Source: an uncultured Pelagibacteraceae bacterium (GTDB lineage Bacteria > Pseudomonadota > Alphaproteobacteria > Pelagibacterales > Pelagibacteraceae). From it: 64,000 nucleotides of DNA. Position numbers and translations under genes: made by a program. Numbering within the stretch: position 1 is the stretch's first letter; each line of letters opens with the position of its first letter. Under the pieces are notes generated by a model. It was not told the DNA's origin. It searched no databases and was given only the letters and a program-made list of their open reading frames with translations. This document shows positions 52,370-57,544 of this stretch, piece by piece. Where the stretch lies: positions 1-64,000 of the forward strand of contig CABZXO010000006.1 of assembly GCA_902529645.1 (NCBI GenBank), in the 5' to 3' direction.

Positions 52370-52453
52370 TTTCTAATCTTTTTAAGCAAAAAAACAATTT
52401 AATATTTAGCTTGACGTAATTTTTATTGAACTTGATTTTTTTATTATTTTCCC

Positions 52454-52482
52454 TTGAACAGTAATTTCTTACATGCTTAAAT
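52454..52482 (+). promoter_or_regulatory. Candidate sigma-70 promoter for the aap operon
   Basis: TTGAAC (52454-52459, 4/6) and TTAAAT (52477-52482, 4/6) are separated by 17 bp, upstream of an 18-bp palindrome and aapJ. An alternative TTGACG at 52411 has no matching -10. The match is modest. Confidence 0.35.
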
Positions 52483-52508
52483 TAAGAATATTCAAAAGTA
52501 ATTTTGAA

Positions 52509-52526
52509 TTATTTGTTAACAAATAA
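52509..52526. promoter_or_regulatory. 18-bp perfect palindrome before aapJ, candidate operator
   Basis: TTATTTGTTAACAAATAA reads identically on both strands. It lies between the candidate promoter and the ribosome binding site (AAAGGAAG, 52536-52543) of aapJ. It resembles a dimeric-repressor site, but no binding protein is known from this window and A+T-rich palindromes can arise by chance. Confidence 0.45.
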
Positions 52527-52547
52527 AAATAACGTAAAGGAAGAATA

Positions 52548-53588
52548 ATGTTTAAATACTTAAAACAATTAACTTCTTTAGTTGCTATGGTTGCAGTGTT
52601 GTTTACTTTTACAACAGAAACTATGGCTGCTAAAAAATCTAAAACACTTAAAAACACTCAAAAGAAAGGTTTTGTAAGATGTGGAGTATCTCAAGGTCTT
52701 CCAGGATTTTCTAACGCTGATGCTGCAGGAAATTGGACTGGTGTTGACGTTGATGTATGTAGAGCAGTAGCTGCTGCAGTATTAGGTGATGCAAACAAAG
52801 TTAAGTTTACACCACTAAGTGCTAAAGAAAGATTTACTGCTTTAACTTCTAATGAGATAGATATCTTATCTAGAAACACTACTTGGACTCTTTCTAGGGA
52901 TGCTGACATTGGTCTTACTTTCGTAGGTGTAAACTTCTACGATGGTCAAGGTTTTATGGTTAGAAAAAATTCTGGAATATCTTCTGTGAATGATTTCAAA
53001 GCAGGTGTTTCAGCTTGTACAAACCTAGGAACAACTACTGAGCTTAACATGAGAGATTTCTTTAATTCAAAAGGAATTCAATATGAGCCAGTAACTTTTG
53101 AAAAAGCTGACGAAGTCGTAGCTGCGTATGATGCTGGTAGATGTGATACTTACACTACTGACAAGTCAGGCTTAGCTGCTCAAAGAATTAAATTGAGTAA
53201 CCCTGATGATCATATGGTTTTACCAGAGACTATATCTAAAGAACCTTTGGGACCTGTTGTAAGACAAGGTGACTCTGTTTGGGAAGATATCGTTAGATGG
53301 TCACTAAATACTATGATTGAAGCTGAGGAGTATGGTGTTACTTCGTCTAATGCAGATTCTATGAAAACTTCTGATAACCCAGCTGTTAAAAGATTAGTTG
53401 GTGCTGAAGGTGAATTAGGTGCTGCTCTAGGTTTAGACAACGAGTGGAGTTTAAGAATTATCAAGCAAGTTGGTAACTATGGAGAAAGCTATAAGAGAAA
53501 TATAGCAGATACAGGAATTCTACCTGACAGAGGTCCAAATGAATTATGGACTAAAGGTGGAATACTTTATGTACCACCAGCAAGATAA
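52548..53588 (+). CDS. aapJ: General L-amino acid ABC transporter substrate-binding protein
   Basis: Periplasmic solute-binding protein for broad-range amino acid uptake (AapJ/YhdW, PBP family 3). The 346 residues start with a signal peptide of about 27 residues ending MAA. The mature part contains KKGFVRCGVSQGLPGFSN, the ligand-site stretch RFTALTSNEIDILSRNTTWT and the C-terminal RIIKQVGNYGESYKRN. It has a strong Shine-Dalgarno, and codons less A/T-biased than the neighbours, which suggests high expression. SAR11 YhdW-type proteins are known to be abundant. A terminator follows directly. Confidence 0.96.
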   Translation: MFKYLKQLTSLVAMVAVLFTFTTETMAAKKSKTLKNTQKKGFVRCGVSQGLPGFSNADAAGNWTGVDVDVCRAVAAAVLGDANKVKFTPLSAKERFTALTSNEIDILSRNTTWTLSRDADIGLTFVGVNFYDGQGFMVRKNSGISSVNDFKAGVSACTNLGTTTELNMRDFFNSKGIQYEPVTFEKADEVVAAYDAGRCDTYTTDKSGLAAQRIKLSNPDDHMVLPETISKEPLGPVVRQGDSVWEDIVRWSLNTMIEAEEYGVTSSNADSMKTSDNPAVKRLVGAEGELGAALGLDNEWSLRIIKQVGNYGESYKRNIADTGILPDRGPNELWTKGGILYVPPAR

Positions 53589-53660: not shown

Positions 53661-54806
53661 GTGAATATTAAAAAAATATTACCCCAATTACTTACACTTT
53701 TAGTCGTAATTCTTGTCTTTGGATTTTTTTCATATAACGCACAAATTAACATGGAAAACAGAGGGATTACTTTTGGGTATGGATTTTTATCTCAAGAGTC
53801 TTCATTTGATGTTCAGTTTTCATTGATTGAGTATGATGGTTCTCACTCATATTTTAGAGCTTATTTAGTAGGATTATTAAATACTATTTTAGTTTCCGTT
53901 ATTGGAATTATATTTGCAACTATTATTGGAGTTGTAGTTGGAATTGCAAGATTATCAAATAACTATCTTATTAATAGAACTGCTGCAGTTTACGTAGAAT
54001 TTTTTAGAAACATTCCTTTGTTGTTACAAATATTTTTTTGGTATTTTGCTGCTTTAAGAGCACTTCCATTACCTCAAGATACTGAGCCTATGTTTGGGGT
54101 TTTTTTTCTAACTATAAAAGGTTTTTTTGTTCCTGCTTTTGTTTGGAATAACTTAGATATTTTTATTTATTCAATAATTGCTGCAATAATTTCAATTATT
54201 TTCATTAAAATTTATGCAAAAAGAAAACAAGAGAACAAAGGTATCCAAACACCAGTTTTTTCAATTTCAATAGGAATATTAATAATTTTACCTTTATTAA
54301 GTTTTTTATTTGGTGGCGTTGATGCTTCGGTTGAAGTTCCCGTAATTAAACAATTATCTCAATCTGGTTTCACTTATGAAGGAGGAATTAAGTTACCACC
54401 TGAATTAATATCACTTGCATTAGCCTTATCATTATATACTGCAACTTTTATTGCTGAATGTGTTAGAGCAGGAGTACAGGGTGTGAGTAAGGGTCAAAAA
54501 GAAGCTGCAGCATCAATCGGATTAACACCAAATCAAGTACTTAAACTTGTAGTAATGCCACAAGCATTAAGAATAATAATACCTCCAACCACAAATCAAT
54601 ATTTAAATTTAACTAAAAACTCATCTCTTGCCGCTGCAATAGCTTACCCTGATTTAGTCCTTGTATTTGCAGGAACTGCTTTGATGCAAACAGGAAGAGC
54701 GATAGAAATCGTTTCTATAACAATGTTAACTTATCTGTCTTTGAGTATATCAATTTCAGTATTTATGAATTGGTATAATAAAAAAATAGCTATTAAAGAA
54801 AAATAA
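53661..54806 (+). CDS. aapQ: General L-amino acid ABC transporter permease AapQ
   Basis: Inner-membrane permease (HisMQ family) of the amino acid importer. The 381 residues start with a lone helix (about 7-25), followed by the long periplasmic insertion typical of AapQ, then the transport core. The ATPase-coupling EAA loop is visible as GVSKGQKEAAASIGLTPNQV, and FFRNIPLLLQIFFWYF is a family signature. I use GTG 53661: it keeps the normal N-terminal helix, though no clear Shine-Dalgarno is present. Its expression depends on read-through of the terminator before it. It shares one base with aapM. Confidence 0.94.
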   Translation: MNIKKILPQLLTLLVVILVFGFFSYNAQINMENRGITFGYGFLSQESSFDVQFSLIEYDGSHSYFRAYLVGLLNTILVSVIGIIFATIIGVVVGIARLSNNYLINRTAAVYVEFFRNIPLLLQIFFWYFAALRALPLPQDTEPMFGVFFLTIKGFFVPAFVWNNLDIFIYSIIAAIISIIFIKIYAKRKQENKGIQTPVFSISIGILIILPLLSFLFGGVDASVEVPVIKQLSQSGFTYEGGIKLPPELISLALALSLYTATFIAECVRAGVQGVSKGQKEAAASIGLTPNQVLKLVVMPQALRIIIPPTTNQYLNLTKNSSLAAAIAYPDLVLVFAGTALMQTGRAIEIVSITMLTYLSLSISISVFMNWYNKKIAIKEK

Positions 54807-56248
54807 TGAATAAATTGAATTTTTTACAACCAGATAAAAACAATTTTAATACCTATCTATATACAGGTGTAATTTTAGTGGCACTAAGTATATTTATAGT
54901 TTTTTTAAATTCTTTTTTTAATAAAGATATAATTTCTTTTTTACCTGGATCAATAAGTTTCTTTTTACCACTAATTTTAGGATTTATTGGACTTCATTTA
55001 ATTAGAATTGATTATTCAGGCTTAAAGTTTTTAGACGCTATTAATAAAAATATTAATACTAATAATTTTAATGCTTTTTTATCATTATTAATTGTATTTG
55101 TAGTAATCAAATCACTCCCACCATTATTAAGCTGGTTTATTTTAGATGCGAATATTGCTGGAGACTCAAAAGACGTATGTACAGGTACAGGTGCATGTTG
55201 GACTTATATTAAAATTTGGTTTAACAGATTTATGTATGGAATGTATCCAAATGCTGAACAGTGGCGTATTAACCTATCATTTATAGCTTTAGCTTTTCTT
55301 GGTACTATTGGATTCTTTGCTACTGAAAAATTTAAAAAATATTTGACACTTTATTATGTAGCTGTTTATCCTGTGATTGCTTTTTTCTTTATTTTCTTTT
55401 TCATATCCGGTGGTCCAATATTTTTTGATTTTTCATATGGAATAATTGCAGCTGTAATTTCAATTATAATTGGATTTTTTATTCCATCAAAATTTAAAAT
55501 GTATTATTTCATTATAGTTCCAATCACTCTCTATATATTATTAAAATATGTATTTTTTTATGAAGAGCTTATTGAACTTGGTAAATTAGAATCATTAGAG
55601 TGGGTAGAGACAGGCGCTTGGGGAGGTTTGTCTTTAACTTTTATAGTATCATTTTTTTGTTTGATTTTCTGTTTTCCTATAGGTTTGTTTTTGTCTTTAG
55701 GTAGAAGGTCTGATTTTCCAATAATTAAATATTTTTCAATAGGAATGATTGAATTTTGGAGAGGTGTTCCATTAATTACAGTATTATTTATGTCCTCAGT
55801 AATGTTTCCAATGTTTTTACCTGAAGATATGTTTATTGATAAATTAGTAAGAGTAATTATTGCAATCTCATTATTTGAAGCCGCCTATGTTGCTGAGGTT
55901 ATTAGAGGTGGTTTACAAGCATTACCAAGAGGTCAATATGATGCTGCTAAATCTTTAGGAATGGGATATTGGAAAATGCATATTTTAGTGATTTTACCTC
56001 AGGCACTTAAACTTGTAATACCTGGTATTGCAAATACCTTTTTAGCCCTTGTAAAAGATACTCCTTTAATATTTGTTGTTGGACTTTTAGAAATTGTTGG
56101 AATGCTAAATCTTGCTAAAACAAACCCAGAGTGGCTAGGATTTGCAATGGAAGGTTATGTGTTTGCATCAGTACTATTTTTTATTATTTGCTATGCAATG
56201 AGTAAATATAGTTATAATTTAGAACAAAAATATAAAACGGAAAGATAA
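54806..56248 (+). CDS. aapM: General L-amino acid ABC transporter permease AapM
   Basis: Second permease of the importer. The 480 residues include extra N-terminal helices and a short loop with [21 protein letters not shown] (near 128-148), typical of AapM. The core comes after about residue 270, with the coupling loop [20 protein letters not shown] and the [19 protein letters not shown] segment. It heterodimerises with AapQ. It shares one base each with aapQ and aapP, consistent with one transcript. Confidence 0.95.
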
Positions 56249-56982
56249 TGTCAGATAAAATAATTCAGATTACAGAAATGAATAAATGGTTTGGTGATTT
56301 CCAAGTATTAAAAAATATAAACTTAGAGGTAGAAAAGAATAAAAAAATTGTAGTTTGTGGACCCTCAGGATCAGGTAAATCAACATTAATTAGATGTATA
56401 AACAGACTTGAAGAACACCAACAAGGTTCAATTATAGTAGATGGAAATGAATTAACAGAGGACACTAAAGACATAGAAAAAATTAGAGCTGAAGTTGGTA
56501 TGGTTTTTCAACAATTTAATTTATTTCCTCATCTTTCTATTTTAGATAATTGTACTCTAGCGCCAATTTGGGTAAAAAAAATGCCAAAAAAAAATGCAGA
56601 AGAATTAGCTCTTCAACATTTAGAAAAAGTACAAATTGCAGATCAGGCAAGTAAATATCCTGGTCAATTATCAGGAGGTCAGCAACAAAGATGTGCTATT
56701 GCTAGAGCATTATGCATGGAGCCAAAAATAATGTTATTTGATGAACCAACATCAGCTCTCGACCCAGAAATGATTAAAGAAGTTTTAGATGCAATGGTTA
56801 ATTTAGCAAAAGCAGGAATGACAATGATAGTTGTTACTCATGAGATGGGGTTTGCAAAAGAAGTTGCAGATGAGGTTATTTTTATGGACGAAGGAATGAT
56901 TGTTGAAAGAGCTGAAACCAAAGAGTTTTTTGCTCACCCTAAGAGCGATAGAACCAAGCTATTTTTAAGTCAAATCCTTTAA
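56248..56982 (+). CDS. aapP: General L-amino acid ABC transporter ATP-binding protein
   Basis: ATPase of the amino acid importer. The motifs are intact: Walker [10 protein letters not shown] (38-46), Q-loop FQQFNLFPH, signature LSGGQQQR (140-147), Walker [12 protein letters not shown] (161-171) and the switch histidine in VVTHEMGFA. The 244 residues are normal for the polar amino acid family (GlnQ/AapP). It ends the aapJQMP operon. The 190-bp gap after it has no evident terminator and carries the control region of the XRE regulator. Confidence 0.97.
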
Positions 56983-57156: not shown

Positions 57157-57174
57157 ATTAAGAGGGGTCTTAAT
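57157..57174 (+). promoter_or_regulatory. Hairpin presenting the Shine-Dalgarno of the XRE regulator gene in its loop
   Basis: ATTAAGA-GGGG-TCTTAAT: a perfect 7-bp stem (57157-57163 with 57168-57174) around a GGGG loop. The Shine-Dalgarno bases are in the loop and the first two bases of the ATG (57173-57175) are in the stem. It can act as an RNA structure controlling translation or as a palindromic DNA operator. Confidence 0.6.
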
Positions 57175-57544
57175 GGAAGATAATTTCAATAAACACTTAG
57201 GCAACAAGCTTAAGCTAAGAAGATTAGCTTTAGGTTTAACTCAGACTAAAGTAGCAAAAGCAATTAATGTAACATTTCAACAAATTCAAAAGTATGAGAA
57301 AGGGACTAACGGTGTAAGTTCGATAAGATTACTTCAACTTGCAAATTATTTAAAAGTCCCAATTAATTATTTCTTTGAAGATTTTTCAGAATATTTAGTA
57401 AACTTAGAAAAATCACAAGAAGGTCACATGAGTGTTAATTATAATTTTTTAGTAAAATTATATTCAGAGCTTACTGCTGATCAAAAATTAAAATTTAATA
57501 AATCTTTACAAATTTCAGGTTCAGGAATTTCAAAAGCAGTTTAA
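57173..57544 (+). CDS. XRE-family transcriptional regulator (PraR/PhrR-like)
   Basis: A 123-residue DNA-binding protein with one Cro/CI-type helix-turn-helix (about 10-68). The motif TQTKVAKAINVTFQQIQKYE lies at 23-42, followed by GTNGVSSIRLLQLANYLKVPINYFFED and a short C-terminal region of unknown role. The VTFQQIQKYEKG pattern is typical of the alphaproteobacterial PraR/PhrR group. A strong AGAGGGG ribosome binding site sits in a hairpin loop at the start. Direct repeats upstream and related repeats downstream suggest autoregulation. It may control the adjacent aap operon, but this is conjecture. Confidence 0.9.
   Translation: MEDNFNKHLGNKLKLRRLALGLTQTKVAKAINVTFQQIQKYEKGTNGVSSIRLLQLANYLKVPINYFFEDFSEYLVNLEKSQEGHMSVNYNFLVKLYSELTADQKLKFNKSLQISGSGISKAV

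Follow-up and report, generated by a model that had tools for sequence, protein, structure and literature searches.

An 18-bp perfect palindrome in the leader of the amino-acid uptake gene aapJ (yhdW) has a core that is retained in all but one of the Pelagibacter-type aapJ leaders we compared and recurs in the leader of a second binding-protein gene, livK. Judged from sequence, the palindrome looks like an operator-like DNA dyad for a dimeric regulator, placed beside a separate 5' RNA hairpin in aapJ. We give this reading an even chance; it is the best of several that we weighed. It is built on the dyad and its conservation, its place relative to the promoter and to published transcription starts, its recurrence at livK, and an enrichment of dyads in binding-protein leaders.

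According to PMC13198564, no heterotrophs in the marine plankton are more abundant than SAR11 bacteria, and transcriptional regulators are relatively few in oligotrophs whose genomes are reduced. How SAR11 tune uptake is a question on which the dyads bear: a conserved palindrome at two amino-acid uptake genes points to an undescribed switch controlling nutrient uptake, and the site common to aapJ and livK, together with the class of dyads at binding-protein genes, supplies concrete DNA probes for finding the regulator.

Layout of the aapJ leader

The window (the whole 64,000-nucleotide stretch of Pelagibacteraceae DNA that was analysed) holds ntrY, ntrX, two further ORFs and a tRNA-Arg upstream of aapJ, and the features listed in Table 1. 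An earlier note on this DNA had described an 18-bp perfect palindrome in the aap operon leader, lying after a candidate promoter and before a ribosome-binding site. Both statements hold: the palindrome TTATTTGTTAACAAATAA, which we call IR2, occupies exactly 52509–52526, with TTGAAC-17-TTAAAT upstream and AAAGGAAG and the aapJ ATG (52548) downstream. The 17-bp promoter spacing recurs in 115 of 118 distinct leaders from relatives, as scored by script. Directly before IR2, and abutting it, stands another inverted repeat, IR1, which was absent from the earlier note and reads ATTCAAAA-GTAA-TTTTGAAT in the window.

Table 1. Features of the aapJ locus, in window coordinates
Feature	Position	Strand	Basis
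Promoter TTGAAC - 17 bp - TTAAAT, TG ahead of the -10 box	52454..52482	+	Sequence; spacing in relatives
Inferred transcription start	52488..52488	+	Analogy with the HTCC7211 start, 60 nt 5' of the ATG (PMC5069720, Table 2)
IR1, inverted repeat of 8 bp around a 4-nt loop, candidate 5'-terminal RNA hairpin	52490..52509	+	Covariation, position
IR2, 18-bp perfect palindrome, candidate DNA operator	52509..52526	.	Sequence, conservation
Conserved core TTGTTAACAA, common to livK leaders	52513..52522	.	Leader comparison
Ribosome-binding site AAAGGAAG	52536..52543	+	Sequence
aapJ (yhdW), amino-acid-binding protein, SBP_bac_3 (family 3 solute-binding protein)	52548..53588	+	Gene calls, Pfam
aapQ, aapM, aapP, two permease genes and an ATPase gene in the same apparent operon	53661..56982	+	
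XRE-type (HTH_3) regulator gene 3' of aapP, weak regulator candidate	57173..57544	+	

Transcription starts have been mapped on strain HTCC7211 (PMC5069720). We took genome G135 to be HTCC7211 because the end coordinates of yhdW and PB7211_130 (livK) agree to the base. The start column in the available table was read as giving mapped starts, and its quality is mixed, with some entries equal to the ATG or apparently internal. The yhdW start given there lies 2 nt before IR1. By analogy, IR2 would occupy about +22 to +39 of the transcribed leader, a place that makes a repressor or roadblock likelier than an activator. A leader peptide was rejected: the ORF covering the region begins in the -10 box, 5' of the inferred start, and its ATG is absent in other clades.

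Conservation of the palindrome core

We collected aapJ upstream regions from 101 relatives, from the best 80 of 589 loci in a scan of genome contigs and from fetched stretches. The 123 resulting Pelagibacter-type leaders comprise 109 distinct sequences, with the window's own leader counted twice and two loci cut inside the gene left out; for 14 of them the start codon was sought downstream of the core, which sits 22–38 nt 5' of it in each. The core TTGTTAACAA was present in 122 of the 123, orthologues that are not independent, here as in the recurrence counts below. The remaining leader (L099) reads TTGTATACAA, changed at the centre yet still symmetric, so that a perfect dyad, as expected of an operator for a dimeric regulator, is found across relatives in 123/123. 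The earlier note had called for an alignment of SAR11 aapJ upstream regions and had named non-conservation in close relatives as grounds for abandoning the idea; the comparison instead finds conservation, which lends the idea partial support.

The full palindrome measures 18 bp in 69 of the distinct leaders, 14 bp in 32, 20 bp in six, and 16 bp and 12 bp in one each, a variation that marks the core as the conserved part. In the window, TTATTTGTTAACAAATAA is the single exact copy in the 1.29-Mb assembly, and near-matches to this AT-rich 18-mer occur within the window at chance level. It is therefore conservation across relatives, and not the single sequence, that rules out a chance origin. For the HTCC7211 orthologue, dinucleotide shuffles of the 48 nt around its published start produced so long a palindrome in 0.4% of cases.

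Conservation fades with distance. Among 30 further loci, one of them without a leader, the core was found in 8/29 (genera g6, g7 and g9) and was absent from 21/29 (g8, g10, g12 and g15), the start codon being uncertain in some. The deeper genera of the family lack the palindrome core in their aapJ leaders, and it was found in none of 21 leaders of the sister family f2, a 22nd being cut. Many core-less leaders have another AT palindrome at the same place, such as TTTAATTAATTAAA (f2) or TTTAATTTAAATTAAA (g12), none of which is singly beyond chance given AT-rich DNA.

Genome-wide, all 12 Pelagibacter genomes scanned had fewer sites for TTGTTAACAA than for its backward control (4–10 vs. 10–23), perhaps reflecting the stop codons that TTGTTAACAA carries on both strands. 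Exact TTTGTTAACAAA occurred 0–4 times per genome and its backward control 0–5 times.

Recurrence of the core at livK

The earlier note had also suggested a genome scan for similar sites. An exact-core scan of 12 genomes led to the livK leader in two of them (G000 and G004), where livK encodes a branched-chain-type binding protein (Pfam PF13458); beyond aapJ and livK, the scan showed the exact core in no leader repeatedly. Searching 30 near-complete Pelagibacter genomes for the core followed by GG and ATG gave 66 matches vs. 41 for the pattern read backwards. By hand classification from coordinates, the 66 fell at aapJ in 30 genomes, at livK in 20 and at 16 other places in 12 genomes. The backward count weighs against an operator. 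The core is nevertheless one site at two genes, aapJ and livK, as an operator for a dimeric regulator can be.

Setting aside two distant paralogues from 29 livK matches left 27 orthologues, whose leaders have the exact core in 20 cases, one mismatch in four and a diverged sequence in three. The four mismatches all fall in the left half and break the symmetry; these asymmetric sites, and the three orthologues without the core, count against an operator. In HTCC7211 the livK core lies at +11 to +20 of the start listed in PMC5069720. Outside the genus it was missing from all six readable livK leaders, a further point against. The matches listed in our literature search, a search whose coverage excludes most subscription journals, included no description that we recognised of this aapJ/livK element.

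In family f2, the livK leaders (L375–L378) carry a block like TTTGCTAGCATAA upstream, which may be part of the promoter, and a different short palindrome.

Two inverted repeats of different character

A covariance model of both repeats was run on 100 aapJ loci (from L006–L115, with duplicates and cut loci omitted); 95 pass at E 0.007, with L095, L097, L100, L110 and L111 scoring lower. Pairing in IR1 reaches 98.1% over the 88 distinct rows; four of its pairs are altered on both sides, one of these occurring as CG, GC, UA and AU, and its loop ranges from 3 to 8 nt across leaders. The core of IR2 has a constant length; in it three pairs are invariant, and the two pairs flanking them switch jointly from AT to TA. 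The end of the -10 box lies 34–36 bp from the IR2 centre in 107 of 118 distinct leaders (with one more lacking a hairpin call), and the IR2 centre lies 21–34 nt from the ATG. Sequence that varies with pairing kept makes IR1 resemble an RNA hairpin, while a fixed core at a near-fixed promoter distance makes IR2 resemble a positioned DNA site. IR1 probably folds as an RNA hairpin where the mRNA begins, since it combines covariation with a position 2 nt away from the start listed for HTCC7211, as expected of a 5'-terminal stem with free sequence.

A competing account, which we consider somewhat unlikely, is that IR1 and IR2 form a tandem pair of RNA hairpins, with IR2 also acting as RNA, and that this pair makes the mRNA more stable or adjusts its translation. 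Both pairings are kept with compensatory changes, and the whole structure has a covariation score of 0.178 vs. 0.036 in shuffles (0/500 shuffles reach 0.178), on an alignment fitted to the structure and with a score that relatedness can inflate. The repeats are separated by 0–1 nt in 117/118 leaders, which a joint RNA structure would explain and which to that extent counts against an operator. IR2 is also predicted to fold (-2.3 kcal/mol at 37°C, -5.3 at 15°C). These points are opposed by the single-sequence fold of the window leader, which is no better than shuffles (z -0.70; 44/200 fold as well), and by RNAalifold, which recovers IR2 alone from an ungapped alignment. The core and its 4-nt centre are invariant save for one symmetric change, and that centre is self-complementary, which a loop does not need. 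Moreover, IR1 is missing from the livK leader, and its core is predicted to stay unfolded at 37°C and to reach no more than -0.9 kcal/mol at 15°C, so a stable stem is predicted at aapJ and not at every core site. According to the accessible part of PMC13198564, YhdW protein and transcripts are uncoupled; this suits an RNA pair and fits either IR1 or IR2.

Applied to 101 genomes, the two-repeat model gave 45 strong matches (E < 2e-4), one per genome. Of these, 44 correspond to the Pelagibacter genomes with full aapJ and one lies at a contig end, leaving no extra copies beyond aapJ at this threshold. A riboswitch or known RNA family was likewise set aside: Rfam matched only tRNAs across the whole window, and within 52370–52700 gave a single sub-threshold match (E 0.89) inside aapJ.

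At the 5' terminus of the ompA leader, a stem-loop stabilises the mRNA. IR1 resembles it in beginning no more than about 2 nt from the inferred 5' end and in keeping structure, not sequence; the comparison covers IR1 and not the reported palindrome IR2. Such 5'-terminal stabilisers, with the E. coli ompA leader as an example, are treated in a review (PMC7509114). The structured RNAs that PMC2704228 proposes for 'Cand. P. ubique' are likewise conserved SAR11 leader elements, some near transporter genes, but yhdW and aapJ do not appear in the accessible text. Table 1 of that paper omits tRNA-bearing intergenic regions, and the aapJ intergenic region of the window holds a tRNA-Arg.

A putative operator

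The earlier note had proposed an operator for nutrient control of amino-acid uptake. The operator part agrees with the conservation, with the near-fixed promoter distance and with a livK core that lacks a stable hairpin; a nutrient signal acting at IR2 is conjecture. We envisage that IR1, in which pairing and not sequence would matter, is an RNA hairpin that probably shields an abundant mRNA at its 5' end. IR2 would be read as DNA, by its sequence and symmetry. A dimeric regulator occupying it would hinder promoter escape or block elongation, and less amino-acid-binding protein would be made. The same regulator may act on livK through the same core.

IR2 can be compared with operators of dimeric repressors that sit just downstream of +1. 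It shares with them a perfect dyad, a fixed place near the start and an association with functionally related genes; it departs from them in that most other binding-protein genes have dyads of different sequence.

Palindromes in other binding-protein leaders

IR2 is not unique in kind, most of the other solute-binding-protein leaders that we looked at having palindromes of other sequence. We examined 26 of the 28 rows with start reads in the PMC5069720 table, an exploratory set chosen because of the finding itself. All six binding-protein genes in it, potD, tauA, opuAC, dctP, livK and aapJ (names as in the table), have palindromes of 12–18 bp (shuffle p <= 0.03). Four other rows also reach p <= 0.03 (proteorhodopsin, PB7211_641, amt and glcB, with the amt palindrome inside coding sequence), and the remaining 16 have p > 0.2. 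The palindrome is kept while its sequence changes in 6/7 genomes for opuAC and in 6/6 for potD.

In a wider screen of 155 leaders, drawn both from the window and from a further 19 longer stretches, a perfect palindrome of at least 12 bp was present in 15/19 solute-binding-protein leaders vs. 14/136 others (Fisher p 7e-10, counting orthologues as independent though they are not), leaving four binding-protein leaders without a long palindrome, which tells against the operator reading. The binding-protein label was assigned by homology and by eye, and Pfam confirms six tested representatives besides aapJ and livK. By gene family, five of seven have a palindrome (one SBP_bac_1 and one SBP_bac_5 family are without), to which the start-site set adds tauA and dctP. 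With each leader represented by its best 4-nt-loop hairpin, loop sequence unrestricted, the loop is self-complementary in 14/17 binding-protein leaders vs. 13/61 others. Because hairpin loops need no symmetry, this favours DNA over an RNA loop.

We tentatively propose, as possible and short of probable, a SAR11 scheme in which many abundant nutrient-binding proteins are controlled through short perfect DNA dyads between the start and the ribosome-binding site. Symmetry would be kept while sequence may drift, one global regulator of relaxed specificity or a few small ones would read the dyads, and aapJ and livK would be members with a shared fixed core. One regulator for all dyads would be unusual, since the sequence differs between most genes. 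That same difference, with symmetry kept and several palindromes beginning at +1 or +2, would suit palindromes acting through properties of the DNA or initial transcript (melting, promoter escape or pausing) with no specific protein; we think this unlikely, as it leaves the exact aapJ/livK core and its near-invariance unexplained. Highly unlikely is a small RNA pairing with the decamer that the two uptake genes share upstream of their ribosome-binding sites: it would itself carry the same self-complementary decamer, and the few non-genic exact sites lie in unrelated places (in the inspected part of 83 sites from 12 genomes).

The HTCC7211 leader of a bacteriorhodopsin-type gene (proteorhodopsin; L410, G135 529540–529820) contains a palindrome of 16 bp, TAGTTTATATAAACTA, which spans roughly +25 to +40.

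Candidate regulators

A GntR-family regulator was rejected, the family (PF00392) being found in 5/25 genomes overall and missing from 5/6 of the Pelagibacter genomes searched. The XRE gene lies 3' of aapP in 4/6 motif-positive regions (the other two are too short to tell) vs. 0/9 motif-negative ones. As a regulator of IR2 it is a weak lead, because its adjacency could equally reflect clade, and no core is seen in the DNA preceding the XRE gene.

NtrX sites are given as CAAN2-5TTG or GCAN9TGC in the accessible part of PMC9223101. They resemble IR2 in being short inverted repeats at nitrogen-related genes, and in the window ntrYX is a close upstream neighbour; IR2, however, is TTG-N4-CAA, with the half-sites in reverse order. 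We rejected IR2 as an NtrX site on this ground and because amt leaders have another motif. That motif, a TGCA-N5-TGCA inverted repeat, precedes 11/13 AmtB-type genes (L247–L252, L254, L255 and L266–L268) and differs from IR2. It looks closer to an NtrX site than IR2 does, and is a candidate nitrogen-control operator, perhaps that of NtrX.
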